NCBI GenBank assembly: GCA_002929055.1
Contig: PERY01000013.1
Span: 1 to 64,000 of the forward strand
Direction: 5' to 3'
Origin: Methylocystis sp.
Lineage (GTDB): Bacteria > Pseudomonadota > Alphaproteobacteria > Rhizobiales > Beijerinckiaceae
DNA length: 64,000 nucleotides
Of this stretch, positions 1 to 28,336 are shown one piece after another. How positions within the stretch are numbered: the first letter of the stretch is position 1; each line of letters opens with the position of its first letter. A model generated the notes under the pieces. That model made no database searches. It saw nothing but the letters and a program-made list of their open reading frames with translations, and was not told the DNA's origin. A program made the position numbers and the translations under genes.

Positions 1-120
1 GATGGGCGGCGGCGGAAGATAGACCGGGGGCGGCCCCTTGCGGGAGGGAAGGTCGGCGGCGAACGCCGAACCCGTGGAGATGGCGGCCGCCAGGAAGGCA
101 GCCAGTGCCCGATTGCTCAT
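1..120 (-). CDS. Outer membrane beta-barrel protein, N-terminal part only
   Basis: Only the first 40 residues lie in the window; the rest runs off the left edge. The visible part starts at an ATG at 120, has a typical signal peptide (MSNRALAAFLAAAISTGSAFA), and the predicted mature protein begins ADLPSRKGPPPVYLPPPPI. That start, an AFA cleavage site followed by a proline-rich tail after ADLP, is characteristic of the Omp25/Omp31-like porin-family barrels of Hyphomicrobiales. A putative structural outer membrane protein is the best call; the barrel itself cannot be seen. Confidence 0.75.
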   Translation of the reverse strand, partial: MSNRALAAFLAAAISTGSAFAADLPSRKGPPPVYLPPPPI

Positions 121-309
121 TAAACTCTCCGTTACGCTTGCGCTTATTCGCAACTTGGGATGACCCGTTGAGAGTTGTGCCAAGAAAGGTTTAATTTTTT
201 CCCTAAGCTTTGCCCCAGGGCGAAGCCGGCGCTCACGCCAATTGATTGTCCGCGCGGGTTCTTGTGGCTTCAAGACCCTTGTAGCCTGACCGGTCCTCGC
301 TGGCTGGCT

Positions 310-774
310 TCAGGCGCGAGCCCCTGTCATCGCCTTGCCGGCGGGAGGTCTTCTCTGCGGCAGACGCGCAATCTCTACACGCTTAACGGGCACGCCCATC
401 TTCTGCGCGCTCGCGATCAGTCTCTCGGTTGATTCCCCCGCGCCAAAGCAGATGATCCTGTCGGGCCGGCTGCTAGAGAGCATGCGCATGTTGCGCTCGT
501 CGATCGTTTCCTTCCGGAAGCCCCGGCGCTCGCGCACAAATGCTACGAGAGGCACATTGTTGAGCGCAGCCCAGCTTGAGCCGAGGCGCTCCGCCCCGCC
601 CTCCGAGCCGGCGATGATTGCCGAAAAGCCGAACTCCGCGTGCAGTGAAGAGAGAGTTTCGAGAACGAAAGCGCGTTCGTCGGATGAACGCGCGACTTCC
701 GCCTGCACCTGGTGACCTTCGACGTCGGAGGCCGGGCGACCAACATTTCGACTGCCGCAAATGATCACTCTCAC
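310..774 (-). CDS. DUF2493 / SLOG-fold (YspA cpYpsA-related) protein
   Basis: A 154-residue protein that opens with MRVIICGSR, the nucleotide-binding first strand and glycine/serine loop of the DUF2493 (YspA, cpYpsA-related) SLOG Rossmann family. A second family-like segment, IIAGSEGGAERL, lies near residue 53. The family is thought to bind nucleotides or nucleotide-derived ligands, but no reaction is established. The start is a GTG at 774 preceded by AGGAG about 8 bases upstream. It is monocistronic here: the left neighbour is the outer membrane gene and the right neighbour is the end of the Hyf-like operon. Confidence 0.7.
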   Translation of the reverse strand: MRVIICGSRNVGRPASDVEGHQVQAEVARSSDERAFVLETLSSLHAEFGFSAIIAGSEGGAERLGSSWAALNNVPLVAFVRERRGFRKETIDERNMRMLSSSRPDRIICFGAGESTERLIASAQKMGVPVKRVEIARLPQRRPPAGKAMTGARA

Positions 775-1116
775 GATACGCTCCTACTTAACGTCAGATC
801 AGCAAGCGCTGATTTAAGCTAAGATGTCGGCTAAGCTATGGAATGTAAACGATTTTTTTCAGGCAGACCGGCGGAGGAAAGATGACGTTTCAGCGTCGCC
901 TGGAGAGCCGCTCGCCTGTGCATCCCCCGGATTTGATCGATAAAGTGCTTTATATCAATAATTTAAGAGACGCCAACCATTTCACAAAAAGGTCGTAACC
1001 GTGTCATTAACTCTAAGCTCGGGTTAAATTTTTGCCTGTGCATTGATCATAAGTTCGGCGCGCAGCGGTTCTATTTCGGCGTGACGGCGGGGCCGCTGTT
1101 CTAGCCGCCGCCCGGC
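775..1116. other. Non-coding stretch upstream of the SLOG gene
   Basis: About 340 bases between the end of the Hyf-like operon and the start of the SLOG gene, AT-richer than its surroundings around 930-1050. It presumably holds the SLOG gene promoter and the end of the operon transcript. No ORF, tRNA, clear hairpin terminator or repeat was recognised. Confidence 0.5.
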
Positions 1117-1647
1117 TCACTCCGCGTCCTTCCTGTCCGCACAATCGACCAGCCCGATCAGACCCTTCAGCAGCGCGATGGGATCAGGGGGGCATCCGCG
1201 AATGTGCAGATCGACCGGGATGACCGCCGAAACCGCGCCGACGCATGCGTAACTTCCCGCGAACACGCCGCCATCATAGGCGCATTCGCCGACAGCCACG
1301 ACCCATTTGGGGTCCGGGGTCGCGTTATAGGTGCGCTCCAGCGCCTCGCGCATGTTCTTGGTGACCGGGCCTGTGACCATCAGCACATCGGCATGTCGCG
1401 GCGACGCCACGAAGCGCAGTCCGAAACGCTCGATGTCGTAAAAGGCGTTGTTCAGCGCGTGAATTTCAAGCTCGCAGCCGTTGCACGAACCCGCATCGAC
1501 TTCACGGATGGCGAGGCTACGGCCGAGCCGCTGGCGCGCCTTGGCGTCGAGGGCGCGGCCCAACTCCTCAAGAACGTCGCCGTCGACCGCGGGGGGAGGC
1601 TCCGTGAGCGCGCGGCGAAGAAGGGCCTGGAGAAGAAATTTCTGCAT
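1117..1647 (-). CDS. Hyf-like complex small subunit (NuoB/HyfI homologue)
   Basis: A 176-residue homologue of NuoB/HyfI/HycG, the subunit that carries the [4Fe-4S] cluster nearest the active site in complex I and group 4 hydrogenases. All four expected cysteines are present: SCNGCE (about C55 and C58), GECA (about C122) and RGCPPDP (about C152). The protein is shorter than E. coli HyfI and lacks extra ferredoxin domains. The ATG at 1647 is preferred, with AGGG upstream and 11 bases after the previous stop; an in-frame TTG at 1686 would overlap the upstream gene. It is the last gene of the operon. The retained cluster suggests electrons still reach this point, although the partner subunit lacks NiFe ligands. 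Confidence 0.85.
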   Translation of the reverse strand: MQKFLLQALLRRALTEPPPAVDGDVLEELGRALDAKARQRLGRSLAIREVDAGSCNGCELEIHALNNAFYDIERFGLRFVASPRHADVLMVTGPVTKNMREALERTYNATPDPKWVVAVGECAYDGGVFAGSYACVGAVSAVIPVDLHIRGCPPDPIALLKGLIGLVDCADRKDAE

Positions 1648-1658
1648 ATCCAACCGCC

Positions 1659-3188
1659 CTAGAGATCGTGCCCCGAATAAGAGCAATTGAAGGATTTGTT
1701 GCAGAGCGGGAAATCCGCAACGATGTTGCCCTTAATAACGGCCTCGAGAAGCGGCCACTGGAACCAGGACGGATCCCGCAGATGCGCGTGGGCGATGCGC
1801 CCGTTGGCGCCGATCCGCAGCCAGACGAGAATGTCGCCCCGGAAACTTTCGACCAGCGCCGCGCCTTCGATTTCGCGTGGCGGCGTCTCCTCGAACGTGG
1901 CGTGGATCCCGCCATGAGGAAGCCGATCCAGAACCTGCTCAATGATCCCGAGAGACGCCTTGATCTCGTCGAAACGCACCCAGATGCGCGCATCGACGTC
2001 GCCCTCCTTCGAGACGCCGAGTTCGAAGGATAGCGTTTCGTACGGCGCGTAGCCGACTGACCTGCGCGCGTCGAAGCGGCGGCCGGAAGCGCGCCCGACA
2101 AAGCCGCCGCACGCATATTGGCGCGCAAGATCCTCGCTCAACGCGCCGGTCCCTACCGTGCGATCCTGTAGCGACGTCGTGTCGCCGTAAAGCTTGAGGA
2201 GGCGAGGGAGCATCAGATTGATCCAGTCGAGCAGACCGCGAAGCTCGGCTATTTTGTCGGCCTCCAGATCGACGGATACGCCGCCCGGGACGATGCGGTC
2301 CATCATCAGGCGGTGACCGAAACATGCAGCGGCAGCGCGCAGGAGCCGCTCCCTGACGAGACCGCACTGGGCGAGCATCAAAGCGAAGGCGGCGTCGTTG
2401 CAGATCGCGCCGATGTCTCCGAAATGATTCGCCAGACGCTCGAGCTCCGCCATCAATGCGCGAAGGTATTGAGCCCGCGCCGGGACAGCGACGCCGAGCG
2501 CCGCTTCGACGGCCCGCGCAAAGGCGAAACTATAGGCGACCGTGCTGTCGCCGGAGACGCGCGCCGCGACCTTTGCAGCCTGCGCGACGGCCGCGCCGGC
2601 CATGAGTTGACCGACGCCCTTGTGAACGAAGCCGAGCCGCTCTTCGAGACGAACAACCACTTCACCATTGGCCGTGAATCGAAAATGCCCGGGCTCGATG
2701 ATGCCGGCGTGCACCGGCCCGACCGGTATCTGATGGAGCGGTTCGCCCTCGGCCTTCAGGAAGCTGTAAGCGTCGCTCGGCGTATCGATGGCTTCCCGCG
2801 CCCCGCCGGGATGTCGCAGACCCCAGCGTCCGTGATCCAGCCACCGTCTTGCGTCAGGCGAGCCGATGGGCTCCAGCCCGTAGAGATCCGCGATCGTGCG
2901 CTCGAGCCGCAGCGCCGGCATATGCAGCAGGCCAACCGACGGGAAGCGGCGATCGGGACACGCGAGCGCGCGGATCACGACGTCGGACGCGTCCTTCGCA
3001 ATCGTCGCCAGATAGACGCTTGCGCCATCGCTCCAGAGGCTGAGAAGATCGGCGTCTCCGCGCGCGATCTCCTCTACGGCGGCGCTCCAGTCCTTAGCGC
3101 CGACATCGAGCCGCGACCACGGATGGCAGGAGGGAGGCGCCGCCGGCGGGGCCTCCCCGCCCCTCTTTTCCCTTCGCATGAACATCAT
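1659..3188 (-). CDS. Hyf-like complex large subunit (NuoCD/HyfG homologue) lacking NiFe ligands
   Basis: A 509-residue fusion of a NuoC-like N-terminal domain (about 1-130) and a NuoD/hydrogenase large-subunit domain (about 150-509). It aligns with HycE/HyfG through QYLRALMAELERLANHFGD. At the place where group 4 hydrogenases have RVCGIC, this protein reads RVSGDS (residues 210-215), so both L1 nickel cysteines are serine or another residue. The C-terminus ends FNCSYSGHDL in place of the DPCxxC motif, keeping one possible cysteine (C502). It should therefore not form a normal NiFe centre and fits the energy-converting hydrogenase-related (Ehr) class. The start ATG-ATG at 3188 follows GAGGAT. 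What it reduces or oxidises is unknown. Confidence 0.85.
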   Translation of the reverse strand: MMFMRREKRGGEAPPAAPPSCHPWSRLDVGAKDWSAAVEEIARGDADLLSLWSDGASVYLATIAKDASDVVIRALACPDRRFPSVGLLHMPALRLERTIADLYGLEPIGSPDARRWLDHGRWGLRHPGGAREAIDTPSDAYSFLKAEGEPLHQIPVGPVHAGIIEPGHFRFTANGEVVVRLEERLGFVHKGVGQLMAGAAVAQAAKVAARVSGDSTVAYSFAFARAVEAALGVAVPARAQYLRALMAELERLANHFGDIGAICNDAAFALMLAQCGLVRERLLRAAAACFGHRLMMDRIVPGGVSVDLEADKIAELRGLLDWINLMLPRLLKLYGDTTSLQDRTVGTGALSEDLARQYACGGFVGRASGRRFDARRSVGYAPYETLSFELGVSKEGDVDARIWVRFDEIKASLGIIEQVLDRLPHGGIHATFEETPPREIEGAALVESFRGDILVWLRIGANGRIAHAHLRDPSWFQWPLLEAVIKGNIVADFPLCNKSFNCSYSGHDL

Positions 3189-3203
3189 CGCCCGATCCTC
3201 ACC

Positions 3204-4652
3204 TCAACCGAGAAGCCGAGCGACGTTCTGAAACCACGTCACGAGATAGGCTGGCAGATAGAGTCCCGCTAGGAGAACGATCGCAAGATGCACGACAAGC
3301 GGGACGGTCGAGGCCTGCACTTCTCCGACGCTTTTCGTCGGCTCGCCGAAGGCGAGGCCAATCAGCCTCAGCAGCAGCGCGCCGAAAGCGACCAGAAGTC
3401 CAAATACCAGCGGGACGGCGAGCCACGGCTGACGCGCAAAAGTCGAACTGACGACCAGAAACTCGCTCATGAAAACGCCGAGCGGCGGCATGCCGCAGAT
3501 CGCCATGACGCTGATGACGAGCCCCCAGCCGAGCGCCGGATGGCTCTGCGTCAAGCCCCGGATTTCAGATATCTTCTGCGTCCCCTTGACTTGCGCGATG
3601 TGGCCCACCGAGAAAAAAATCGCGGACTTCGTGAGGCTGTGCATCGTCATGTGCAGCAATCCGGCGAAATTCGCCACGGGGCCGCCGACGCCAAAAGCGA
3701 AGGCGATGATCCCCATGTGCTCGATGGATGAATAGGCGAACAGTCTTTTGATGTCATCTCGCTTGTAAAGCATGAAGGCGGCGAAGATTACCGACGCAAG
3801 GCCCAGCGCGATCATCATCGGGCCGGGCGTCACGGCGGCCGCATTGGCGGTGAGCAGCATCTTGAAGCGCAAGACGGCGTAGAGCGCGACGTTCAGGAGC
3901 AGGCCGGAGAGAACGGCCGAGATCGGCGTCGGGCCTTCGGCATGGGCGTCTGGAAGCCATGCATGCATGGGCGCAAGGCCGACCTTGGTCCCATAACCGA
4001 GCATCAGGAAAACGAAAGCGACATTCAGCAGCCGCGCGCTGAAATCCGGCGCATGCGCCATCAACGTCGACCACACCATCGAGTCGTAGCCCTCCCCCAG
4101 CACCGGCTCCGCCGCAATATAGACGAGGATCGTGCCAAAAAGCGCGAGCGCAATGCCGACGCTGCCGAGGATAAAATATTTCCATGCGGCCTCCAGCGAT
4201 TCGCGGGTGCGGTAGACGCCGACCATCAGCACCGTCGTCAGGGTGGCGACCTCGAGCGACACCCACATGAGCCCGATGTTGCTCGCGAGCAGGGCGAGAT
4301 TCATCGCGCACAGCAGAACCTGGTAGGTCGCATGGTAGAATCGGAGATTGCCCAGCGACAGCCTGCCGGTGTCGATCTCATGCTGGATGTAGCTCGCGCT
4401 GAATATGCTCGTTGTGAAACCCACCAGCGTGGAAAGCACTACGAAGACGATATTGAGGTCGTCGACGAAGAGGAAGCTGCCATCCTCATGTCCTTTGAAA
4501 AGCAGCGCCAGCGCGAAAAGGAAGGTTACGCCGGAGGCCGCGAGATTGATTTGGGCCGCCCTCCTGTAATCCGTCTGAACGACGAGCGCCGCAGCCGCCA
4601 CCGCGGGGATTGCGACGAGCGCGTTCGAGACCATCAACATTTCAGAATTCAT
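3204..4652 (-). CDS. Hyf-like complex antiporter-like subunit (HyfF homologue)
   Basis: A 482-residue, about 14-helix membrane protein of the NuoM/NuoN/MrpD antiporter family. Key segments are the glutamate in WVSLEVATL, the lysine-bearing GYGTKVGLAPMHAWLPDAHAE loop, and LFAYSSIEHMG followed by HMTMHSLTKSAIFFSVGH, which carry the histidine/lysine proton or sodium path residues. It matches HyfF of hydrogenase 4 in length and order. It overlaps the upstream hyfE-like gene by 4 bases and is separated from the large-subunit gene by 15 bases. Its role is inferred: ion translocation driven by the hydrophilic arm. Confidence 0.87.
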   Translation of the reverse strand: MNSEMLMVSNALVAIPAVAAAALVVQTDYRRAAQINLAASGVTFLFALALLFKGHEDGSFLFVDDLNIVFVVLSTLVGFTTSIFSASYIQHEIDTGRLSLGNLRFYHATYQVLLCAMNLALLASNIGLMWVSLEVATLTTVLMVGVYRTRESLEAAWKYFILGSVGIALALFGTILVYIAAEPVLGEGYDSMVWSTLMAHAPDFSARLLNVAFVFLMLGYGTKVGLAPMHAWLPDAHAEGPTPISAVLSGLLLNVALYAVLRFKMLLTANAAAVTPGPMMIALGLASVIFAAFMLYKRDDIKRLFAYSSIEHMGIIAFAFGVGGPVANFAGLLHMTMHSLTKSAIFFSVGHIAQVKGTQKISEIRGLTQSHPALGWGLVISVMAICGMPPLGVFMSEFLVVSSTFARQPWLAVPLVFGLLVAFGALLLRLIGLAFGEPTKSVGEVQASTVPLVVHLAIVLLAGLYLPAYLVTWFQNVARLLG

Positions 4653-5314
4653 CGCTTCTCTCCGCGCACGCGATCCAGCTCGAAGAGATCGACCGTGTCA
4701 AAGCGCTCCCGGATTCGGAAGAGGAAGATGCCGATCACGATGAAGGCGACGAGCACGGAAAGCGCGACGCTGATCTCGACGACGAGCGGCATGCCGTCGG
4801 CGCCCGCCGCCGCCAGGATGAGCCCGTTCTCGAGAGACATGAAGCCTATAATCTGACTGACCGCGTTGCGCCGAGTCACCATCATAAGGAGGCCCAGAAG
4901 GACGATCGCGAGCGCAAAAGCCAGATCCTCCCGCGCGAAAGGATCGGCGGAGGCGGTGGCCGGCAGCATGACGACAAGCGAGAGAGCCACGAGAAACATG
5001 CCAAGGAACATCGTCGGCCCGATGCCGCCCACGATCTCCACCGTCCGATGTATGCGCAGCTGCTTCACAATCCTGCGCAGGGCGACCGGAATGATCGTCG
5101 CCTTGAAAATGAGCGCGATGCCCGCCGTCACATAAAGGTGGGGCGCATGCTGGACATAAGCCTGCCAGGCGACCGAGAGGGTCAGAGCGACCGCATGAAG
5201 CGCAAAAATATTTATGAGCCCCGACAAGCGGTCCTGGTAGAGCAGCATGAAACTGACGAGCACGAGGCTGCCAGCGAGCAGCTGCGCGACGTCGAGGTTG
5301 AGATGCTCCATCAA
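4649..5314 (-). CDS. Hyf-like complex subunit HyfE homologue (NuoK-like)
   Basis: A 221-residue membrane protein with about six helices. The C-terminal half resembles NuoK/MrpC, including FMSLENGLILAA with the conserved membrane glutamate. The full length matches HyfE (216 residues in E. coli), which is longer than NuoK. Both ends overlap neighbouring genes by 4 bases, showing translational coupling with hyfC-like and hyfF-like genes. The presence of HyfE, which complex I lacks, is one reason to class this operon with hydrogenase-4/Ehr complexes. Confidence 0.85.
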   Translation of the reverse strand: MMEHLNLDVAQLLAGSLVLVSFMLLYQDRLSGLINIFALHAVALTLSVAWQAYVQHAPHLYVTAGIALIFKATIIPVALRRIVKQLRIHRTVEIVGGIGPTMFLGMFLVALSLVVMLPATASADPFAREDLAFALAIVLLGLLMMVTRRNAVSQIIGFMSLENGLILAAAGADGMPLVVEISVALSVLVAFIVIGIFLFRIRERFDTVDLFELDRVRGEKR

Positions 5315-6264
5315 AGACTCCTGGTGACGAAGACGAGCAACGTGCCCAAAAGCCCGAGCATGAGCGCGACCCCGAGATAGTCCGAAACGCGAAAGACCCG
5401 CATCTTCGCCGTGGACACCTCGAAAACAGCGAGGAGAAATCCCGCGACCGCGAGTTTGGCCACATAGAGGACGACGCCGTAACCCATGCCTGAGAGGCTT
5501 CCATTATGCGGCGCAAGGCCGAACGGAAAGAAAACGCAGGCGATGAGCGACACGTACAGAAGAAGCTTGAGCGCCGAGGCGAGTTCGATGACAGCGAGAT
5601 GTCTGCCCGAATATTCGAGAATCATCGCCTCATGGACCATCGTCAGCTCGAGATGGGTGGATGGATTGTCGACAGGGATACGGCCGTTCTCCGCGATCGC
5701 GACGATGACGAGGCCCACAAGCGCGAAGCCCACCGACACGCGCAGCTCGAAGTCCGACGCCATATAGGCTGCAACCTCTGAAAGCTGCGTCGATCCGGCG
5801 ATGAGCGAGACGACGAAGACGATCATGATCGTCGCAGGCTCGGCGAGCGAACCGAACATCGTCTCTCTGCTGGAGCCGATGCCGCCAAAACTCGTCCCAA
5901 CGTCCATTCCCGCGAGCGCGAGGACGAAACGCGCGCTTCCCAGTAGCGCCGTGAGCGCGATGAGGTCGGCGATCCAGCTGAACATCAGACCCGTGGCGAA
6001 GGTGGGGGCAAGCGAGGCGGCCACCCAGGTCGTCGCGAAGATGATGTAAGGCGCCGAACGGTAGAGCCATGACGCGTCTTCGGCGAGAACCGTCTCCTTG
6101 CGAAGGAGGCGGATGAGGTCGTACCAGGGCTGCATGACCGGCGCGCCCTGGCGCCGCAGGAGCCGCGCCTTCACCTTGCGCGTGAAGCCGATGAGCACGG
6201 GCGAGAGCGCCAGCACCAGAATCATCTGCATCGCCTGAGCGAAAAGGTCCAGGAGAAAAGTCAT
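5311..6264 (-). CDS. Hyf-like complex subunit HyfC homologue (NuoH-like)
   Basis: A 317-residue NuoH/HycD/HyfC-family protein that forms the membrane anchor joining the peripheral arm to the antiporter subunits. Family segments visible are RRQGAPVMQPWYDLIRLLRKE near residue 38 and AENGRIPVDNPSTHLELTM, with conserved acidic residues, near residue 195. The start ATG at 6264 overlaps the stop of the hyfB-like gene by 4 bases, a better choice than the longer upstream reading frame. E. coli HyfC is nearly the same length (315). Confidence 0.88.
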   Translation of the reverse strand: MTFLLDLFAQAMQMILVLALSPVLIGFTRKVKARLLRRQGAPVMQPWYDLIRLLRKETVLAEDASWLYRSAPYIIFATTWVAASLAPTFATGLMFSWIADLIALTALLGSARFVLALAGMDVGTSFGGIGSSRETMFGSLAEPATIMIVFVVSLIAGSTQLSEVAAYMASDFELRVSVGFALVGLVIVAIAENGRIPVDNPSTHLELTMVHEAMILEYSGRHLAVIELASALKLLLYVSLIACVFFPFGLAPHNGSLSGMGYGVVLYVAKLAVAGFLLAVFEVSTAKMRVFRVSDYLGVALMLGLLGTLLVFVTRSL

Positions 6265-8258
6265 AGGGCCACGATGATGAGCAGGACGACGAGCGCGACG
6301 AAGACCAGGCCGAGATACTCCTGGATCGACAGGAAATTGACGACGTTCAGGCGGCCCGCGCAGAACCACACCGCCTTGGCGAGCGGCGTGTAGAGGCCGT
6401 TCATGAAGCGATCGCCGATCTCCACCGTGAAGCGCGCGGCGCGCGTCTCTCCCGGCAAGGGCATGTCCAGGCTCTCCCGGGTGGAGAAAGCGAGGCCGCC
6501 GAGCGCGCGGCGCACGGGCTGCGCGAAACTGCTCGCGGTGTATTGGGTCGCGAGACTCGAGTCGGCATAGCCGCAGTCCCAGGGCGGCGCGCGGCGCACG
6601 GGGCGCGGCCATAGCGTGCGGATGAGGCGCATCGCGCCAAAGGACGACAGAAGAATGAAGACGAAGACCAGAAGCCCGTTATAGGAGCTGCGGCTTTCGG
6701 CGACGGGCGCGATAGTGAGCCACGGCAGGTCGCCCTGCACGATCATGCGGCCGCCGACATATTCCTGCGCCGCTGGCGAGATCGTGTCGATCATGAAGCT
6801 CGGCGCGACGCCGGCGAGGAGGCACATGGCGAGCAGCACGGACATGGCGCCAAGCGACCAGCCATCCGTCTCGCTCGCGGCCTGTGCGGCGGCGGAACGC
6901 GCGCGGCCGAGAAAGACAATGCCGAAGGCGCGCACATAACAGCCTGCGCCGAGCGCGGCGCTCAGAGCGAGGGCGACGCCAACAAGCGGCGTGATGAGCT
7001 TCAATATCCACTGCGGCAGCGAGGGCGTCAGGAGAATGGCCTGGAAGACCAGCCATTCCGAAACGAAACCGTTGAGCGGCGGCAATGCGGCGATGGCGAC
7101 GCAACCGCCCAGAAACAAGAAGGCTGTGCGCGGCATCGATTTGATCAGCCCGCCGAGCTTTTCGATATTCTTCTCTCCCGTGGCGCCCAGCACCGCGCCC
7201 GCGCCGAAGAACAGCACGCTCTTGAACAAGGCGTGGTTGAAGACATGGAATAGCGCCGCGGTGAAAGCCAATGCGGCCGGCAGCGCCTGGCCATTGGCTT
7301 TGAACGCCAGCGCCAGTCCGAGCGCGACGAAGATGACGCCGATGTTCTCGATCGTGCTGTAGGCGAGCAGCTTCTTGAGGTCGCTCTGGACGGTCGCGAA
7401 GAGAATGCCGGTCATGGCGCTCAGCGCCCCAAGGACGAGGGGATGGATGCTCCACCAGAAAGCAGGCTGGCCAAGGAGATCGAAAACGATCCGGATGAAT
7501 CCGTAGATCGCGACTTTCGTCATCACCCCGCTCATGAGCGCGGAGACATGCGACGGAGCCGCCGGATGCGCGAGGGGAAGCCAGATATGCAGGGGAACGA
7601 GGCCAGCCTTGGAGCCCGCGCCGAGAATGACGAGGCCGAGGACGAGCCCAGCCTTCCAGGCGTCCTTGGGCGCTTCTCGGATCGTGGAGAAATCATAGGC
7701 GCCGCCGACGCCGCCGAGCACGCCGAAAGCCATGAGCAGGCAGAGTGTGCCGAAGCTCGCCATGAGCAAATAGATATATGCGGCTGACCGGCTTTCGGCC
7801 TCCTGGTGGGACGCGAGCACGAGCGCCCATGACGAAAGCGACATGAACTCCCAGGCGACGAGGAAGGTGAAGGCGTCGTCGGCGAGCACAACGCAATTCA
7901 TTGCGGCGATGAACGCCGGGAAGAAGGGCAGCACGCGCATCGGATGCTTCTCGTGCGCGCCGTAGCCGATCGCGTAGACGCTCGCCGCCGCGCCGCCGAT
8001 ATTGACGACTGCAAGAAAGAAAGCGCTCAGCGCGTCGAGGCGAAAGCGCATCCCGATCCATGGAAGCCCCAACGGCAGCGTGGCCGAGAGCGCGTGGGCG
8101 CCCCTCGGACTCACCACCGCGACGAAGATGAGGACGCAGAGGGCGCAGCACAGAGTATAAATGATCCGGCTGATGTCGCTGCGCGCTCTCCGCCGGATTG
8201 AGAGCACGCTCACGCAGAACAGGGCTCCAACGAAAATCAGCGCAAGGTCCAGCGGCAT
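6261..8258 (-). CDS. Hyf-like complex antiporter-like subunit (HyfB/NuoL homologue)
   Basis: A 665-residue NuoL-like antiporter subunit, close to E. coli HyfB (672). Conserved segments include VAWEFMSLSSW with the TM5 glutamate, GSKAGLVPLHIWLPLAHPAAPSH with the lysine and loop, LLAYSTIENIG, and FHVFNHALFKSVLFFGAG. A helical extension at the C-terminus follows residue 500. A strong site (GAGAGGAGGG) precedes the ATG at 8258. It starts 30 bases after the SulP gene, so SulP and the whole complex are probably co-transcribed. Confidence 0.88.
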   Translation of the reverse strand: MPLDLALIFVGALFCVSVLSIRRRARSDISRIIYTLCCALCVLIFVAVVSPRGAHALSATLPLGLPWIGMRFRLDALSAFFLAVVNIGGAAASVYAIGYGAHEKHPMRVLPFFPAFIAAMNCVVLADDAFTFLVAWEFMSLSSWALVLASHQEAESRSAAYIYLLMASFGTLCLLMAFGVLGGVGGAYDFSTIREAPKDAWKAGLVLGLVILGAGSKAGLVPLHIWLPLAHPAAPSHVSALMSGVMTKVAIYGFIRIVFDLLGQPAFWWSIHPLVLGALSAMTGILFATVQSDLKKLLAYSTIENIGVIFVALGLALAFKANGQALPAALAFTAALFHVFNHALFKSVLFFGAGAVLGATGEKNIEKLGGLIKSMPRTAFLFLGGCVAIAALPPLNGFVSEWLVFQAILLTPSLPQWILKLITPLVGVALALSAALGAGCYVRAFGIVFLGRARSAAAQAASETDGWSLGAMSVLLAMCLLAGVAPSFMIDTISPAAQEYVGGRMIVQGDLPWLTIAPVAESRSSYNGLLVFVFILLSSFGAMRLIRTLWPRPVRRAPPWDCGYADSSLATQYTASSFAQPVRRALGGLAFSTRESLDMPLPGETRAARFTVEIGDRFMNGLYTPLAKAVWFCAGRLNVVNFLSIQEYLGLVFVALVVLLIIVAL

Positions 8259-8288
8259 CCACCCTCCTCTCTTGACGTTCGGAATGCG

Positions 8289-9944
8289 CTAGGCGACCCG
8301 CTTGCGCGGCGCGAGAGGATGTTTGGACGTTGCGACGAGCCTGTCGAGACCGTGAATCTCCGCCCGGCCGCCTTTTCCGCGATAGTCTTCGCAAAAATGA
8401 TGCAGGTTCTCCTTCACCGTGTGATCGATGGTCGAGGTTTCGGAGAGATCGAAGATGATAGTCTTGCCTTCCGGGATCGCGGCCAGATCTCCTTTGAGCG
8501 AGAGATAATTGCCAAAGAAGGCCGCTCCCCGCACCTCGACGTGATAGACCCCCGGTTCGGTTTCTTCGATCGTCCGGTTTAATTTGATCACCTCGCGCCA
8601 GTCGACGCTGCGCCAGAAATGGAAGAGGAATTCCGCGACGACGCCGATCGCCACGCCGATCAGGAGATCCGTCGCGAGGACGCCGACGATGGTGATGACG
8701 AAGACACCGAGCTGGTCCCAGCCAATAGCGAGTGTCTTCTTGAATTCGCCCGGCGAAGCGAGACGGTAGCCGGTAAAGACCAGAAGCGCCGCGAGCGAAG
8801 CCAGCGGAATCTCGTGGATCAGTTTCGGGAAGAGCGCGACGAAGAACAACAGAAACAGGCCATGAAAGAAATTGGCCCAGCCGGTTTTCGCGCCATTGTT
8901 CACATTGGCCGAGCTGCGCACGATCTCCGCGATCATCGGCAACCCGCCGATGAGGCCGCAGATCGCATTGCCGAGGCCAACGGACGCGACGTCGCGATTG
9001 AGGTCCGACGTGCGCTTGTAAGGGTCGAGCTTGTCGACAGCCGCGGCGCTCAGCAGACTTTCAAGACTGCCGACCAGCGCGATGGCGAACACCTGTTGCC
9101 AGAACAACGACTCACCAGCTCTGGAAAAATCCGGAAAGGCGAAGCCCGAAAAGAAATTCGCTGGCAGGGTGACGAGGAACTTCGGCCCGACGGTGAATTC
9201 GTGATGCGGCAGGAACTCGGCGCTCGTCAGGAAGAGATAGATGTGCTCGTCCTCGAGATCGAAGTATTGGGCGAGCGCCATGCCGACCAATACGACGATC
9301 AGGGGCGCCGGAAGCATTTTCAGATAGCGGTTTCGGACGAGTGTCCAAAGGGCAAGAATGGCCAGGCCGAGAAATCCGATGATCGCGACCTCGGGATTCA
9401 TGTCCGTGAAGCTGCGCGGGATGGCGCCGATCGTCTGGAAAAGCGTCTGCGCGTCCGGCTTCACCCCCAGCATGACATGGATCTGCTTGGACATGATGAT
9501 GATGCCGATAGCCGCCAGCATTCCATGCACGGCGGAAGACGGAAAGAAGGCGCTCATCTTGCCGGCCTTCATGACGCCCATCGCGATCTGTATCAGCCCC
9601 GCGAAGAAGATGGCCGCGAGCGTGTAGCGGTAACCCGCGAGCGCATTGGCGCCTCCAAGCTCCTGAACCGAGTCGAGGATGACGACGATCAGCCCCGCGG
9701 CCGGACCCATGACGGTGACGAATGAGCCGTTGATGCGCGAGACCAGGAGCCCGCCGACGATCGCCGTGATGATGCCGGCCTGTGGCGGAAAACCGGACGC
9801 CATGGCGATGCCGAGACAGAGCGGCAGGGCGATGAGAAATACGAGAAAGCCTGACAGAACGTCGGCGCGCCAGTTCTGGGCGAGCCCGGCCATCCCGGTC
9901 GAAGGGATCTGCGGAGCTTCTACTGTCAAGGGCGCAATACTCAT
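8289..9944 (-). CDS. SulP-family anion transporter with STAS domain
   Basis: A 551-residue SLC26/SulP permease. The N-terminal membrane core starts RADVLSGFLVFLIALPLCLGI and contains VTVMGPAAGLIVVI. The C-terminal STAS domain (about 440-530) includes IIFDLSETSTIDHTVKENL. SulP proteins move bicarbonate (BicA), sulfate, C4-dicarboxylates or other anions; this type, with an STAS domain, is often annotated as a bicarbonate or sulfate carrier, but the substrate cannot be read from sequence. It is the first gene of the operon encoding the Hyf-like complex, which suggests a functional link between anion uptake and ion pumping. The ATG at 9944 follows a weak purine-rich site. Confidence 0.85.
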   Translation of the reverse strand: MSIAPLTVEAPQIPSTGMAGLAQNWRADVLSGFLVFLIALPLCLGIAMASGFPPQAGIITAIVGGLLVSRINGSFVTVMGPAAGLIVVILDSVQELGGANALAGYRYTLAAIFFAGLIQIAMGVMKAGKMSAFFPSSAVHGMLAAIGIIIMSKQIHVMLGVKPDAQTLFQTIGAIPRSFTDMNPEVAIIGFLGLAILALWTLVRNRYLKMLPAPLIVVLVGMALAQYFDLEDEHIYLFLTSAEFLPHHEFTVGPKFLVTLPANFFSGFAFPDFSRAGESLFWQQVFAIALVGSLESLLSAAAVDKLDPYKRTSDLNRDVASVGLGNAICGLIGGLPMIAEIVRSSANVNNGAKTGWANFFHGLFLLFFVALFPKLIHEIPLASLAALLVFTGYRLASPGEFKKTLAIGWDQLGVFVITIVGVLATDLLIGVAIGVVAEFLFHFWRSVDWREVIKLNRTIEETEPGVYHVEVRGAAFFGNYLSLKGDLAAIPEGKTIIFDLSETSTIDHTVKENLHHFCEDYRGKGGRAEIHGLDRLVATSKHPLAPRKRVA

Positions 9945-10364
9945 CTGTCTATCTCTGCGGCAGACATGAATCGAAGGAAGCGGATCGACGGGCGTCTATC
10001 GCATGTACGGCGCCACCGGAATGGCCATCCGCGCGGTTCCTCCGCTCAGAGAATTGAATAACAATTGTGCAGGGCGGACATATATTGGGCGTGCTGCAGC
10101 GCCTAGGGCCTAGATGCGGGGGATCGTGGCGCCCCGGCGGTTCGGGGGTGCGATGCGATCTCTGGCTTCATTGATGTCCCTCGCTGACTGGCGACCGCTG
10201 GAACTTCGCAGAGGGCTGTTTCGGAAGTTTTTCGCACTGCAAGAGAATATTTCTGGTTCGTGTCTCGAAAGTGTTCCGCGGCCTCAATGCCGGACGAACC
10301 CGGCCGGAGCGGGCTATAGCGTCGAGACGAATCGCAAATGCAAAACAGGGAGCGGAGTCCAGGC
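9945..10364. other. Divergent intergenic region between SulP operon and two-component system
   Basis: A 420-base region that must hold the promoters of the leftward SulP-Hyf operon and the rightward response regulator gene. The block around 10045-10090 is AT-richer (gaattgaataacaattgtg contains the palindrome ACAATTGT flanked by AT). No convincing coding sequence was found; small reading frames on both strands here have no recognisable content. Confidence 0.45.
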
Positions 10365-11075
10365 ATGACCACGCGGGTCTTGCTCGTCGAAGACGACGCC
10401 GAGATCGGAGAGCTGATCTCGCGCTATCTTGGAAATAACGCCATGGACGTCACCGTCGTGCCAAATGGCGACGCCATGGACGACGCCTTTGCCGCCAAGG
10501 GTTTCGACGTTCTCATACTGGACCTGAACCTTCCGGGCGAGGATGGCTTTTCGATCTGCCGCCGGATGCGGGCGACCCTGGCCGTCCCGATCATCATCGT
10601 CTCGGCCCAGGGCGAAGACGTCGACAAGATCCTCGGTCTCGAAATGGGCGCCGACGACTATGTCGTCAAACCATTCAATCCCCGCGAATTGCTGGCGCGA
10701 ATCCGCGCCGTTCTTCGCCGTGCGGAGCAACCGAGCCGCGCCGAGAAAGCGATGGGCCACGCCTATCTGTTCCTGGGATGGCGGCTCGACCTCATGGCGC
10801 GCGAACTCGTGTCGCCCAGCGGCACCAAGGTGGCGGTGACCGGCGCGGAATTCGACCTTCTCCACGCCCTGTGCGAGAATCCGAACCGGATCCTGACAAG
10901 GGACCAGCTCATCAATATGACTCACGGCCCAACCTCCGGCCCTTTTGAGCGCAGCATCGACGTGCTGATTAGCCGGCTGCGACAGAAAATCGAGAGGGAT
11001 CCGAAAAACCCGTCTATTATTCAGACGGTCCGCTCGGAAGGCTACATGCTGTCGGCGGCGGTCTCCCGCCTGTGA
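10365..11075 (+). CDS. OmpR-family response regulator
   Basis: A 236-residue response regulator. The receiver domain spans about 1-120, with acidic pocket VEDD (residues 8-11), phosphoacceptor D53 in VLILDLNLPG, and the lysine in YVVKPFNP. A winged-helix DNA-binding domain follows at about 130-232, including RSIDVLISRLRQKIE. The ATG at 10365 has GGAG 8 bases upstream; an earlier in-frame start at 10338 has none. The partner kinase gene follows at once. Divergence from the SulP operon makes that operon a possible target, but no binding site was identified. Confidence 0.88.
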   Translation: MTTRVLLVEDDAEIGELISRYLGNNAMDVTVVPNGDAMDDAFAAKGFDVLILDLNLPGEDGFSICRRMRATLAVPIIIVSAQGEDVDKILGLEMGADDYVVKPFNPRELLARIRAVLRRAEQPSRAEKAMGHAYLFLGWRLDLMARELVSPSGTKVAVTGAEFDLLHALCENPNRILTRDQLINMTHGPTSGPFERSIDVLISRLRQKIERDPKNPSIIQTVRSEGYMLSAAVSRL

Positions 11076-11089
11076 GGATAAGGGATATC

Positions 11090-12466
11090 ATGCAGCGGCT
11101 GCAGCCCGACCGACTCGCGGGCCAGATCACCCTGCTGATCCTCGTCGCGATCGTGACCTTCCAGACGATCGTACTCGTCACGTTCCATGTTCTGGACGTT
11201 GAAGGACGCCGTCATATTGTCGATCAGACCGACTTCGTCGCCAGCATCATCCTGGCGCTGGACGCCGCGCCGCTGGACGCGCGCGATCATCTACTGAGGG
11301 AATTCGCGCATGCGGTTCCTTTCGCGAATATCCATATCCTGAACGAGCGCCCCCCGTCGATAGAGGCGGAAGATCGCGGCTTCCTCAATGAAGTCCGCCT
11401 CATTCATACGGACCTCTGGGCCGGTTCAGATGTCTTTGCGGTCGCCGACCCGAGCAGCAATAATCCTGGGATCATGGCGGTCGGCCTGCGCAAGAGCGGC
11501 TACGCCCTCGTCTCGATCTCCCAGCACCGCAAGCCCCCGCGCTCCGTCTGGCGATGGCTCTGGCAGCCCGATCCCGGAACGCCGTTTCTGCTGACGCCCT
11601 GGGCGCTCTCGGCGATCCTGTTCTTTCTGTGCACTTCAACGCTCGTCCTTTGGGCGTCGAACGGCATCGTGGCGCCCTTGATCACGCTTGCGCGCCACGC
11701 CGAACAATTTCCGGGCGACGCCGCCGGCGAGAGGCAGCTCGACGAGCGTGGTCCGCACGAAGTGCGCGAGCTGACCCGTTCGATCAACCGGATGCAGGAA
11801 AGGATCGGCACGATGATCGCCGCGCGCACGAGAGTGCTGGCGGCCGTCAGCCATGATCTGAAGACGATCATCACCAGGCTGAACCTTCGCACAGAGTTTA
11901 TCGCGGATGGCGATCTTCGGGCCAAGATGTTGCGCGACCTCAATCTGATGGACTCGATGTTGAAGAAGAATCTTCAGCATCTGCGCGCTGAGGGCGACCG
12001 GTCGGACTATTCGTTGATCGATCTCGACAGCGTTCTGCAAACGGTGGCCGACCAGTTTGCAGATATTGGCCATAAGGTGCGTTACCAGGGCGGAAGCCAC
12101 CAGATGATCCTGGGTTCTCTCACCGAGATGCAGCGCGTCTTCTCCAACCTGATTGAAAATGCAATCAACCACGCCGATGACGTGGAGCTTTCGATTTCGG
12201 CCGGCAACGGTCGGCTATACATCGATGTGGCGGACAACGGCCCCGGAGTCCCCGACGAAGCCAAGGAAAGCGTTTTCGAGCCCTTCGTGCGCGGCCAACC
12301 GGGCCGGACCATCGGCAATCACAGCGGCTTCGGACTTGGCCTGTCGATCGTGCGTTCGCTTGTGGAGAGCCATGGCGGAACGGTCGAACTGCTCGACCGG
12401 GAACCCAAGGGGCTGATCGCGCGCGTCAGCCTGCCGCTTGCGGACGAGTCACAGCAAGGCGCATAG
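11090..12466 (+). CDS. Membrane sensor histidine kinase
   Basis: A 458-residue sensor kinase: first membrane helix at about 11-33, a periplasmic domain of about 130 residues, second helix at about 165-190, HAMP region, H-box AAVSHDLKTIITRL, and a HATPase domain with NLIENAINHA (N-box), DNGPGVP and FGLGLSIV (G-boxes). It is built like EnvZ/RstB-type kinases and pairs with the regulator just upstream. The ATG at 11090 is chosen because AAGGG lies 6 bases upstream; a GTG at 11072 overlapping the regulator stop has no ribosome site. The signal is unknown. Confidence 0.85.
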   Translation: MQRLQPDRLAGQITLLILVAIVTFQTIVLVTFHVLDVEGRRHIVDQTDFVASIILALDAAPLDARDHLLREFAHAVPFANIHILNERPPSIEAEDRGFLNEVRLIHTDLWAGSDVFAVADPSSNNPGIMAVGLRKSGYALVSISQHRKPPRSVWRWLWQPDPGTPFLLTPWALSAILFFLCTSTLVLWASNGIVAPLITLARHAEQFPGDAAGERQLDERGPHEVRELTRSINRMQERIGTMIAARTRVLAAVSHDLKTIITRLNLRTEFIADGDLRAKMLRDLNLMDSMLKKNLQHLRAEGDRSDYSLIDLDSVLQTVADQFADIGHKVRYQGGSHQMILGSLTEMQRVFSNLIENAINHADDVELSISAGNGRLYIDVADNGPGVPDEAKESVFEPFVRGQPGRTIGNHSGFGLGLSIVRSLVESHGGTVELLDREPKGLIARVSLPLADESQQGA

Positions 12467-14839: not shown

Positions 14840-15880
14840 TCAGCAGATGCGCGGCAATTGCTCTCCAGCAAGCCAATCGACGATGCGCGCGCCGCCGAAG
14901 GATGATCTCATCTGGACGAGGCGGCGCTCGTCTTCGACAATGAAGCCGATGATTGCGGCATCCCGACCAAGAGGATGCGCGCGCATGGCGGCGAGCAGTT
15001 GCTGCGCGCTCTCCGGCGCCGCGACGGCGACGAGCTTGCCTTCATTCGCGACATTCAACGGATCGAGGCCCAGTAATTCGCAGGCGGCGGCCACCTCCGG
15101 CTTCACGGGAATCGCCGCCTCCTCCAGACGGAAGCCGATCCGCGATTGCTGCGCAATTTCGTTCAGCGTCGCGGCGAGGCCGCCGCGCGTTGGGTCGCGC
15201 ATCAGTCTGAGCGAGGCGCCGGCCGCAGCGACCATGTCGGCGACGAGGCCGTTGAGCGCCGCTGAATCCGATTCAATCTCGCAGTCGAACGCGAGATTTT
15301 CGCGCTTCGACATGATCGCGACGCCATGATCGCCGATGGAGCCCGACAGAATCGCGACATCGCCCGGCCGCGCCTTGTCGCCAGAAAGCGCGAGGCCCTC
15401 CGGCACGACCCCGACCCCGGCCGTGGAAATGAAGACGCCATCCGCCTTGCCGCGCTCGACGACCTTGGTGTCGCCCGCGATCACCGGCACGCCCGCTGCG
15501 CGCGACGCGGCGCCCATGCTCTGCGCGATGCGCGCGAGATCAGCGAGCGAAAAGCCCTCCTCAATGATGAAGCTCGCCGAAAGAAAGAGCGGCCGCGCCC
15601 CGGACATGGCGATGTCGTTCACCGTGCCATGCACCGCGAGCGAACCGATGTCGCCGCCGGGAAAAAACAGCGGCGAGACGACAAAGGCGTCGGTGGCCAT
15701 CGCCAGGCGGCCTGCGGGAACGTCAAAGACGGATTGGTCGTTACCCTGTCTCAGCCAGTCATTGTCCAGCGCCGAATGGAAAATCCCTGCGATGAGCTGC
15801 GCCATCGCGCGCCCGCCCGCGCCATGCGAAAGATCGACTTGGCCGCTTTGGTCGAGCTTGCGCCGGCCCCTGTTCGTCAC
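14840..15880 (-). CDS. hypE: Hydrogenase maturation protein HypE
   Basis: HypE dehydrates the thiocarboxamide made by HypF on its C-terminal cysteine to a thiocyanate, donating cyanide to iron in the HypCD complex. The 346-residue product has the AIRS-like ATP site (LSHGAGGRAM at the N-terminus, RDPTRGGLAATLNE) and ends in the diagnostic PRIC, with the acceptor cysteine last. A GTG start at 15880 overlaps the hypD stop by 4 bases (GTGA); an ATG at 15928 would give an implausible 52-base overlap and an N-terminal extension. It is the last gene of the hypABFCDE operon. Confidence 0.93.
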   Translation of the reverse strand: MTNRGRRKLDQSGQVDLSHGAGGRAMAQLIAGIFHSALDNDWLRQGNDQSVFDVPAGRLAMATDAFVVSPLFFPGGDIGSLAVHGTVNDIAMSGARPLFLSASFIIEEGFSLADLARIAQSMGAASRAAGVPVIAGDTKVVERGKADGVFISTAGVGVVPEGLALSGDKARPGDVAILSGSIGDHGVAIMSKRENLAFDCEIESDSAALNGLVADMVAAAGASLRLMRDPTRGGLAATLNEIAQQSRIGFRLEEAAIPVKPEVAAACELLGLDPLNVANEGKLVAVAAPESAQQLLAAMRAHPLGRDAAIIGFIVEDERRLVQMRSSFGGARIVDWLAGEQLPRIC

Positions 15881-17010
15881 GACGCGGCTCTTTGCGCCGG
15901 CAGCGACCCGAAACGCCGATAACTCCATTGCGCCGCGCAGGCGCCTTCGGACGACACCATGCAGGAGCCCATCGGCGTCTCCGGCGTGCAGACCGAACCA
16001 AAGAGCTTGCAGTCATGCGGCCGCTTGACGCCGCGCAGGATCGCGCCGCATTCGCAGGCGGGATTGTCCTTTGCCGGCATCGTCTCGATCGCGAAGCGGC
16101 GCTCGGCGTCGAAATCGGCGTAGGCCGCGCGCAACTTCAGGGCGCTTCGGGCGACTTCGCCCAGACCGCGCCATTCGAAAGTCTCGCGTTCCGCGAAAAC
16201 GTCGCCGACTACAGCCTGCGCCTTCACATTGCCGTCTGGCGTGACGGCGCGGCCATACTGGTTCTCGACTTCGCAGCGGCCTTCCTTCAATTGTTGCACG
16301 AGCATGGCGATGGCCTGCATCACATCGAGCGGCTCGAACCCCGCGACGACGATGGGCCTGCCAAATTCCTGCGGCGCGAAGCGGTACGGATTCAGGCCGA
16401 TGACCGCCGAGACATGCGAAGGGCCGACGAAGCCATCGAGCGCAACGCCCTCCCCCTCGGCTCCGAGAATCGCGCGCATGGCCGCAGGGGTGAGCACGTG
16501 ATTGCAGAACACGGAGAAATTTGTGAGCCCCTTCTGTGCGGCGAATTTGATGGCGAGCGCCGTGGGCGGGGTTGTCGTCTCGAAGCCGATGGCGAAGAAA
16601 ACGACCTCGCGATGAGGTGCGGCCTGCGCTATGCGCAAGGCGTCGAGCGTTGAATAAACCATGCGGATGTCGGCGCCGGCCGCCTTCGCTTTCATGAGGC
16701 TCCCGCCGCCAGAGGCGGGAACGCGCATGAGATCCGCATAGGTGCACAGCGTCACCTGCGGATTTCGAGCAAGACGGATCGCGGCGTCGATGCGCGCGAC
16801 AGGGAGCACGCAGACCGGACAGCCGGGCCCGTGGATCATGCGGATGTTGGGCGGCAGCAGGTCTTCCAGGCCATAACGCGAAATGGCGTGGGTATGGCCG
16901 CCGCAAAATTCCATGAAGCGATAGTCGCGATCCCCACGGACGATCTCGGCGAGACGCGCCGCCATGCCCCGCGCCAAACCGCCGTCTCGGAACTCGTCGA
17001 CATATTTCAT
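15877..17010 (-). CDS. hypD: Hydrogenase maturation protein HypD
   Basis: HypD is the iron-sulfur scaffold on which, with HypC, the Fe(CN)2CO group is assembled. The 377-residue protein has the expected FCGGHTH motif (C36), GPGCPVC pair, GFETTTP, and the C-terminal cysteine cluster CECGAILRG...CKLFGSVC...GSCMVSSEGAC that binds the [4Fe-4S] cluster. Length is normal for the family. It overlaps hypC by 4 bases upstream and hypE by 4 bases downstream. Confidence 0.95.
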   Translation of the reverse strand: MKYVDEFRDGGLARGMAARLAEIVRGDRDYRFMEFCGGHTHAISRYGLEDLLPPNIRMIHGPGCPVCVLPVARIDAAIRLARNPQVTLCTYADLMRVPASGGGSLMKAKAAGADIRMVYSTLDALRIAQAAPHREVVFFAIGFETTTPPTALAIKFAAQKGLTNFSVFCNHVLTPAAMRAILGAEGEGVALDGFVGPSHVSAVIGLNPYRFAPQEFGRPIVVAGFEPLDVMQAIAMLVQQLKEGRCEVENQYGRAVTPDGNVKAQAVVGDVFAERETFEWRGLGEVARSALKLRAAYADFDAERRFAIETMPAKDNPACECGAILRGVKRPHDCKLFGSVCTPETPMGSCMVSSEGACAAQWSYRRFGSLPAQRAAS

Positions 17011-17231
17011 TCAGGCGTTCCTGCGAACTCACGGATCATGGCGAGCGTGCGTTCTGCTTCCTGCGCATTCACTTTCGAGAGGGCGAAACCCACGTGAAGG
17101 ATCACGTAATCGCCGACGGCGACGCCGTCGACGAGCGCGAGGGAGACCGTCTTCGAAACGCCGTCGAGCGAAACCTTCGCCATCTCGTCCGGCAGTAGCT
17201 CCGCGACGCGCACCGGAATGGCTAGACACAT
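17007..17231 (-). CDS. hypC: Hydrogenase maturation chaperone HypC
   Basis: A 74-residue HypC/HupF/HybG-family chaperone. It begins MCLAIPVRV, in which the second-residue cysteine binds iron and contacts HypD and the hydrogenase large-subunit precursor. GDYVILHVGFALSKV is the second conserved block. It overlaps the end of hypF by 10 bases and hypD by 4 bases, so translation is coupled. It has a single copy here; a hydrogenase-specific paralogue such as HybG is not present in the window. Confidence 0.95.
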   Translation of the reverse strand: MCLAIPVRVAELLPDEMAKVSLDGVSKTVSLALVDGVAVGDYVILHVGFALSKVNAQEAERTLAMIREFAGTPE

Positions 17232-19519: not shown

Positions 19520-19523
19520 GGAG

Positions 19524-20716: not shown

Positions 20717-20967
20717 GACGGACTTCCTATCGGCCGGAAAAGCGACACGGCGATGAAGGCGACCCTGCGGACGAGCGCTTCGGTCCGCAGTTTTCCCCAT
20801 AATGCCACCTGCCTACCATTCGCGGAAGCATTTTGCTTTCTCGCAGGACGTGCGCATAGTAAGCAGGACGCTGACCTCGCGAAAGGTGAAACGGACATCA
20901 AGCGCTTACCGCTCCAGTCATTGGACAGGAACGCGGGCGTCCCACTATTTGGTTGGAGGGAAGGCGA

Positions 20968-28071: not shown

Positions 28072-28336
28072 CCGGACTGTCTTGGCGCAGCCTTCGGACG
28101 CGAGGGGTATAGGTCGCGCCCCCGCGGGAAGTCAAGCGTTTGTCGCCCCCGCCCGCGATGGCGCGCGAAGCCGCGGGCCCCACCCGGGCGAGGGGGCGGA
28201 AGGGGCTCGCACCAAGGCCGCCACCGACCGTCAAAAGCCTTTTCTTTGCCGGGCCGCCGTGCGACAAGCCGAGCGCGGCAAGCCTGCGGGCGGGGTCGCC
28301 GGCTGCTTGCAAGGGAACTCATTGGGTAGCGCGCCC

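Follow-up and report, generated by a model that had tools for sequence, protein, structure and literature searches.

The function of the Ehr complexes is stated to be unknown in the passages available to us from one source (PMC12342949), and a translocation of charge by them is suspected in another (PMC6349859); the DAB system, for its part, has been reported as a membrane-potential-coupled CO2 hydratase (PMC13144422). Transporters of the SulP family have likewise been brought into connection with inorganic carbon: in Acidithiobacillus ferrooxidans, the SulP of the can2-sulP pair stands beside a carbonic anhydrase and is the proposed importer of bicarbonate (PMC6458275), and for Methylococcus capsulatus, a methanotroph, a carbon-concentrating model has been proposed around a beta-carbonic-anhydrase–SulP operon whose SulP would import bicarbonate (PMC11423575). 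In A. caldus, furthermore, a beta-carbonic anhydrase adjoins a hyf cluster (PMC3826726). Here we consider an operon headed by a SulP gene and continued by hyfBCEFGI, located within the first 64,000 nucleotides of contig PERY01000013.1 of a Methylocystis species (assembly GCA_002929055.1; forward strand), which stretch we refer to in its full length as the window. We found no report joining SulP to a Hyf, Hyq, or Ehr complex in the open-licence PubMed Central literature. The interpretation that we favour, with a probability of about 45% and on the grounds of sequence comparison, is that the SulP-hyf operon may serve methanotrophs as a module for acquiring inorganic carbon (bicarbonate), in which Hyf would occupy the place of DAB as the complex-I-type partner; the organism itself is presumably a methanotroph, to judge from its genus and from the named relatives of its SulP.

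The six-frame translation and the raw sequence revealed a single minus-strand operon, from 9944 to 1117, with the gene order SulP-hyfB-hyfC-hyfE-hyfF-hyfG-hyfI. The first gene (8289..9944) encodes a SulP/SLC26-family anion transporter of 551 amino acids that contains the Sulfate_transp domain (PF00916, E 1e-59), and is followed by a junction of 30 bases (8288-8259) in which a strong, purine-rich ribosome-binding sequence, AGAGGAGGGTGG, precedes the ATG of hyfB immediately on its 5' side. HyfB/HyqB (6261..8258; 665 amino acids) is a NuoL-like ion-translocating subunit matching PF00361 (E 3e-53) and NF005086, the hydrogenase-4 subunit B model, with 804 bits against a cut-off of 667; HyfC/HyqC (5311..6264; 317 amino acids) is NuoH-like (PF00146, NADHdh, E 1e-36); and HyfE/HyqE (4649..5314; 221 amino acids, with a TTG start) is a membrane subunit that had no Pfam match and reached NF008556 with 80 bits (E 2e-22), under the cut-off of 136. 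Next come HyfF/HyqF (3204..4652; 482 amino acids), a NuoM/N-like ion-translocating subunit that gave 821 bits with NF005043, the subunit F model (cut-off 533); HyfG/HyqG (1659..3188; 509 amino acids; PF00346 and PF00329), a fused NuoC-NuoD-like protein devoid of the NiFe ligands; and HyfI/HyqI (1117..1686; PF01058, E 2e-33), a NuoB-like [4Fe-4S] subunit whose open frame begins with the TTG at 1686, the likely start being the ATG at 1647. The hyfB/hyfC, hyfC/hyfE, and hyfE/hyfF pairs overlap by 4 bases, and gaps of 15 and 11 bases—the latter counted from the ATG at 1647—separate hyfF from hyfG and hyfG from hyfI. A pattern scan of positions 1-12000, which among promoters recognizes only those of the sigma-70 type, detected nothing resembling a promoter or a terminator between SulP and hyfB; the four promoter-like sites of that region were all on the plus strand, and its terminator-like matches numbered 15, versus 10.2 ± 3.2 in shuffled sequences. 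The original prediction, made from the letters alone, of one SulP-hyf operon with a strong ribosome site was thus borne out, as were its gene names, with which Pfam and NCBIfam agree, HyfE alone remaining under its curated cut-off; and the promoter or terminator between SulP and hyfB that would, by its own account, have refuted it did not appear within the reach of our scan.

Among solved structures, HyfG comes closest to subunit 5 of formate hydrogenlyase (E 1e-57). The columns of the four NiFe ligands are nevertheless occupied in the window by S212, S215, S503, and G506, so that the two NiFe-binding CxxC motifs that mark the group 4 [NiFe] hydrogenases are missing. In an alignment of 91 HyfG rows, Cys was present at those columns in 0, 1, 0, and 0, respectively, of 84 Ehr rows; among the other seven, six were group 4 hydrogenases with all four Cys, and one (L251) had the first Cys only. 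The loss of the NiFe ligands, which the original prediction had implied in calling the complex Ehr-like, is therefore plain from the alignment. In contrast, Cys 60, 63, 127, and 157 of HyfI, in the 181-residue translation of 1662-1120, were kept in 35 of 35 rows, as corresponds to an N2-type [4Fe-4S] cluster, and His189 of HyfG, present in 91 of 91 rows, aligns with the His of the complex-I quinone site. With its two antiporter-type subunits, its NuoH-like subunit, and one iron–sulfur cluster, HyfBCEFGI would seem to be a small ion pump linked to quinones; the complex is of the known Hyq/Ehr type and not new, the unusual part being the SulP at the head of the operon. We also considered a putative zinc site in HyfG as a replacement for the NiFe site, for which the candidates were Cys263, kept in 77 of the 84 rows, and Cys496, kept in 60; Cys502, however, was absent from the six gammaproteobacterial methanotroph rows listed, and the AlphaFold model, obtained with 15 rows, was poor there (mean predicted local distance difference test score 67.4, with values below 50 at residues 117-189, 339-370, and 474-509). 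Genes of the hypABFDE type for the maturation of NiFe hydrogenases are found in the window at 14840-20800 on the minus strand, although HyfG lacks a NiFe site, and in another family, six loci (L041-L043, L051, L053, and L055) have relatives of those genes on the upstream side of hyfB. A tandem pair of HyfB-like genes precedes hyfC in L226, L255, and L261, which loci belong to one family of small genomes.

To what extent the SulP link is conserved depends on the taxonomic depth. Within the genus Methylocystis, HyfB was found in 33 of 39 genomes, and SulP was directly upstream of hyfB and co-directional with it in 27 of the 30 loci read, the window included (the HyfB matches of G300, G316, and G331 yielded no locus and are outside those 30). 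The distance between the two genes was about 14-202 bases in those 27 loci, and at most 63 in 22 of them. In two of the three remaining loci of the genus (L191 and L193), a helix-turn-helix gene that by eye resembles hyqR replaces SulP before hyfB, which is the classical Hyq arrangement. The conservation in relatives that the original prediction had proposed to examine is accordingly there. In the whole order, a HyfG-like match occurred in 39 of 297 genomes, and, the window aside, each of the 32 full-length loci fetched had the hyfBCEFGI order, with HyfE in the same position in every one; SulP was upstream of hyf only in that of a congener (G238), the carriers of hyf without SulP including Rhizobium johnstonii. 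Similarly, when the 70 fetched hyf loci that reach 1.7 kb or more beyond hyfB on its upstream side were considered, SulP was there in one congener alone (L034) and in none of the 69 from outside the genus; a 23% SulP match in L243 lies 7.9 kb from hyf. The background is broad, since HyfB-like genes were present in 71 of 398 genomes of the phylum, part of which were fetched (40 regions), and six of the loci so obtained were true hydrogenases. In the fetched hyf loci, the union with SulP was not seen outside methanotrophs.

The nearest named relatives of the window SulP, among the best 80 of 520 confirmed ones, are from Methylocystis (77-84% identity), followed by those of gammaproteobacterial methanotrophs, whose SulPs are 56-67% identical to it. 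The Hyf proteins of the latter are more distant, with identities to the window of 41-43% for HyfG, 48-56% for HyfC, 37-42% for HyfE, 58-66% for HyfI, 40-50% for HyfB (31% in L121), and 48-54% for HyfF (28-30% in the short loci L091 and L129), whereas the SulP-less loci of the order are mostly nearer (HyfG, 53-66%). Consistently, in the HyfF tree, Methylocystis falls inside the alphaproteobacterial Hyq clade, which is one of two starred clades, the gammaproteobacterial methanotrophs constituting the other; and a single clade of all the SulP-linked Hyf was rejected by the approximately unbiased (AU) test (p 5.5e-63). In the SulP tree the hyf- and dab-linked sequences are interleaved, and a single hyf clade as against the dab rows was also rejected (AU p 0.0011). 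Ten long-branch rows were left out of each of these analyses, and the trees with all rows retained likewise force at least two changes. The SulP-Hyf union, then, arose twice independently, and the SulP lineage exchanged its partner between Hyf and DAB.

These results bear on the possibility that the complex is an ordinary Hyq endo-hydrogenase, or another quinone-linked oxidoreductase, with SulP as a mere passenger inserted by chance in the place of hyqR. Both the HyqR-like gene before hyfB in L191 and L193 and the H2 phenotypes published for hyq mutants (in the portions of PMC2650096 and PMC3357923 consulted) would be in keeping with such an origin; but the chance insertion would have been needed twice, with the same SulP lineage entering unrelated Hyf lineages and then persisting in 27 of 30 loci, and the NiFe ligand columns are practically free of Cys, so that we regard this explanation as very improbable.

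The neighbourhoods of SulP provided the link with carbon. We surveyed the loci of the best 80 relatives, which set is not random and contains near-copies, and which is made up mostly of alphaproteobacterial and gammaproteobacterial methanotrophs, followed by Bacteroidota. Within 4 kb, 25 of these SulP genes adjoin hyf and 23 adjoin DabA or DabB, while none adjoins both; the hyf label of L119 corresponds to a HyfI fragment at 3.96 kb, DAB genes at 6.1 kb (L104) and 4.7 kb (L125) were scored as none, and DabA, DabB, and DUF2490 were each confirmed by Pfam on one representative. Hyf was downstream in 13 of the 14 alphaproteobacterial loci; the 48 gammaproteobacterial or other proteobacterial loci were divided into 12 with hyf, 10 with dab, and the remainder; and 13 of the 18 from Bacteroidota, planctomycetes, and others had dab. 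When the count was limited to the 50 loci in which SulP is flanked by 4 kb or more on each side, 17 adjoined hyf, 14 dab, and 5 only a regulator pair. Methylomonas lenta R-45370 possesses two such SulPs (L093 and L108), one linked to dab and the other to hyf, and SulP has a DUF2490 gene no more than 8 kb away in 7 dab-linked loci, 3 hyf-linked ones, and 1 other. In ten Bacteroidota loci (L135-L140, L143-L145, and L147), dabA, dabB, and sulP are consecutive on one strand—dabA was not seen in L140—the aligned ends of dabB and sulP being some 69-248 bases apart. Since the same SulP lineage is beside hyfBCEFGI in some loci and beside DabA/DabB in others, the comparison with the DAB pumps that the original prediction had drawn is better founded than that note could know; and its broader proposal of a link to inorganic carbon is likewise supported, the complex itself being the known Hyq.

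Under the interpretation that we favour, SulP would import HCO3-, probably together with H+ rather than Na+. The HyfBCEFGI assembly—six complex-I-like subunits, two of them of the antiporter type, with one iron–sulfur cluster and no NiFe site—would act as a redox-linked partner that translocates ions and that, supplied by a putative electron donor and perhaps in physical contact with SulP, may energize the membrane or remove the co-transported proton; and in the sister lineages, it is DabA/DabB, a membrane-potential-coupled pump that hydrates CO2, that stands beside the same SulP. As to the coupling ion, the original prediction had mentioned the sodium drive of BicA, which was not borne out: Glu295 stands in the column of the Asp that binds sodium in BicA, and that column contained Glu in 88 of 88 SulP rows, so that proton coupling is likelier than sodium coupling. 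The C-terminus of SulP had no Pfam STAS match, yet its alignment with 5da0 extends to residue 545.

The same SulP and Hyf might, alternatively, be parallel systems without coupling, the SulP importing bicarbonate and Hyf being a separate ion pump co-transcribed for the same condition, as may also be the case of SulP and DAB. Dab was in fact divergent from SulP, and hence not in one operon with it, in 10 of the 10 gammaproteobacterial dab-linked loci (in the 13 others it was on the strand of SulP in 12), and the SulP-CS and the DAC of another bacterium each worked alone in Escherichia coli, according to the part of that study available (PMC12628692). Nevertheless, SulP and hyfB are co-directional in 27 loci of the genus, mostly with short gaps, and their union arose twice, which suggests more than a shared timing; we accordingly place the uncoupled arrangement on the unlikely side.

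A number of observations weigh against the role in carbon acquisition. Neither hyf nor dab was within 4 kb in 32 of the best 80 SulP loci, 10 of these having as sole neighbour, within 6 kb, what by eye is a histidine kinase/NtrC-type regulator pair, and 22 adjoining no tested gene; and of the 50 loci flanked by 4 kb or more on each side, 14 adjoined none. Two of the 12 hyf-linked loci from gammaproteobacteria (L096 and L097) have hyf running divergently from SulP, and four others (L105, L116, L117, and L120) have a second SulP between the two. With one beta- and one gamma-carbonic-anhydrase query, the best 80 loci yielded no carbonic anhydrase in the vicinity of SulP, the window SulP reached only 131 bits with the NCBIfam BicA model, whose cut-off is 880, and the draft genome of the window, 89.4% complete, yielded no match for RuBisCO. 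In Thiomicrospira pelophila, one SulP rescued a carbonic-anhydrase-free E. coli and another failed, DAC being also capable of the rescue (PMC12628692, in the part available). Moreover, Hyf is common without SulP and is a member of the nif regulon in Azorhizobium, so that inorganic carbon cannot be its only role; and neighbourhood as such does not prove energetic coupling or function.

The last of these objections from gene context concerns L110, whose SulP lies about 1.6 kb from genes that by eye are cysB- and cysH-like, which suits a transport of sulfate. Along this line, SulP could take up sulfate, or molybdate, for sulfur assimilation or for nitrogenase, with Hyf contributing proton-motive force in diazotrophic growth. 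The very name of the family, a weak MOT1 match (30.6 bits, cut-off 30), the nifH present in the same genome, and the location of hyq in the nif regulon of Azorhizobium (PMC2650096, as excerpted) agree with this possibility, against which stand the 23 SulP loci with DabA/DabB and the members of the order, such as R. johnstonii, that carry hyf without SulP. The evidence for a control of the operon by Nif was no clearer: a scan for sigma-54 and NifA sites gave no clear signal. Of the 14 loci scanned upstream of SulP, 3 had a sigma-54-like match, where shuffled sequences led us to expect about 5%, and one (L084) had a NifA-type site; neither was seen in the window, the same scan also failing upstream of most SulP-less hyf loci. 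We thus consider sulfate or molybdate uptake quite unlikely.

Divergently from SulP, on the plus strand, the window contains an OmpR-type response regulator (10338..11075; PF00072 and PF00486) and its partner, an EnvZ-like sensor kinase (11072..12466; HAMP and HATPase_c), both under the respective NCBIfam OmpR and EnvZ cut-offs. Of the 13 Hyf-linked loci from alphaproteobacteria (L073-L084 and L118), 12 have this regulator, which is likely a local one, in divergent orientation to SulP, L077 being the exception; and the kinase adjoins it in 10 of those 12, no kinase match being listed in L083 and L084. Such a pair, along with the antiporter-type subunits of Hyf, would also be compatible with a role in pH or ion homeostasis, in which SulP would exchange HCO3- for Cl- or move HCO3-/H+ so as to buffer the acid that arises when methane and formate are oxidized, with Hyf expelling protons; a role of this kind has been proposed for the hyf beside the beta-carbonic anhydrase of A. 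caldus (PMC3826726, in the portion seen). SulP is nonetheless tied to DabA, a subunit that hydrates CO2, which is a more specific link than one to general pH systems, and this function appears to us improbable. At 20953-26485, also on the plus strand, there are genes that by eye encode a cation antiporter of the Mrp/Mnh type, including two Proton_antipo_M proteins.

Were carbon acquisition indeed the role of the operon, the imported carbon would feed HCO3-dependent steps, of which the phosphoenolpyruvate carboxylase of the serine cycle is one. We prefer that enzyme as the carbon sink because of the missing match to RuBisCO, which candidate we set aside, while noting genes for phosphoribulokinase, transketolase, and a class II aldolase on the plus strand of the window at 28082-32316. 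The genome has other inorganic-carbon genes as well. A DAB operon, consisting of a LysR-type gene, dabB, and dabA, lies on the same contig just past the end of the window (G000:C13, about 64.6-69.8 kb; L164:2593-7759), its DabA (PF10070; 900 bits, cut-off 25) being at G000:C13:67260-69650, about 57 kb from the SulP-hyf operon, inside which there is no DabA-type gene; and a second SulP, 38-41% identical, is located directly behind a beta-carbonic anhydrase (G000:C2:11993-13486; L160). The pmoA family gave no match in the draft, in a search in which no control matched either, and a gene for that subunit of the particulate methane or ammonia monooxygenase (pMMO/AMO) was present in 31 of 39 genomes of the genus. 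BchX and BchL, which are bacteriochlorophyll genes, exceeded the NCBIfam cut-offs at G000:C8:37195-38046 and 72126-72908 (L154 and L155), with BchX over the cut-off in 10 of the 39 genomes. In other loci, what by eye are a gamma-carbonic-anhydrase-like gene and one for a DASS-like transporter stand directly before hyfB in L243 (genome G571), which is perhaps another link between hyf and carbon, and a weak gamma-carbonic-anhydrase-like match (37%) is downstream of hyfI in L038; these two are among 76 hyf loci.

That DAB can adjoin the same SulP invites a bolder interpretation, namely, that Hyf/Hyq performs a DAB-like job and is itself the inorganic-carbon machine, an Ehr complex having taken over the role of DAB with SulP as the partner that handles bicarbonate. 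Quinone-linked electron flow or the proton-motive force would then drive a one-way hydration of CO2 or a transfer of bicarbonate, to which reaction the vacated NiFe pocket or the antiporter subunits might be coupled. Although we hold this to be decidedly doubtful, it would, if true, assign a function to the widespread Ehr/Hyq family. The favoured carbon-acquisition module has implications of its own: Ehr/Hyq complexes are common, with a function that authors either call unknown or dispute, so that a union with SulP that is exchangeable with DAB would offer a concrete function for at least one branch, and suggests that methanotrophs, which need CO2 besides methane, carry a dedicated carbon-uptake module.

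Compared with the systems already described, the Hyq 'endo-hydrogenase' of Azorhizobium caulinodans (hyqRBCEFGI) matches our operon in its six structural genes and in their order, and has a HyqG that is likewise a fused NuoC/D without CxxC motifs and a HyqI with four conserved cluster Cys, within the portions of the descriptions at hand (PMC2650096 and PMC3357923). Differently from that organism, SulP, as the first gene, and the divergent EnvZ/OmpR-like pair stand in for hyqR, the scan showed no NifA-type site in the window, and the complex is not known to act on H2, whereas the Hyq of Azorhizobium and of other bacteria stands without SulP. With the Ehr complexes the shared trait is a group-4-like architecture lacking the NiFe ligands, the partner discussed in the parts of the sources consulted being a formate dehydrogenase or none, as opposed to the anion carrier found here (PMC6349859 and PMC12342949). 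BicA, other SulP bicarbonate transporters, and the can2-sulP of Acidithiobacillus have in common with our locus the SulP family, and SulP has been placed with carbon-acquisition genes (PMC6458275 and PMC11423575, as far as the passages seen extend). In contrast to can2-sulP, however, no carbonic anhydrase is beside the window-type SulP in the loci searched. A complex-I relative serving carbon uptake is already represented by the cyanobacterial NDH-1MS, in which NDH-1 is joined by CupA/CupB; our operon, unlike that one, comprises only SulP and hyfBCEFGI, which comparison pertains to the operon, no search for CupA/CupB having been made elsewhere in the genome. Finally, the DAB, DAC, and MpsAB pumps share with the operon a NuoL-like membrane subunit and the same SulP lineage as a neighbour, but the operon of the window is without a DabA-like CO2-hydrating subunit, its partner to SulP being a six-subunit complex with an iron–sulfur cluster; and this pairing of SulP with Hyf, together with the occurrence of the same SulP beside DAB elsewhere, points to an as yet undescribed inorganic-carbon uptake module.

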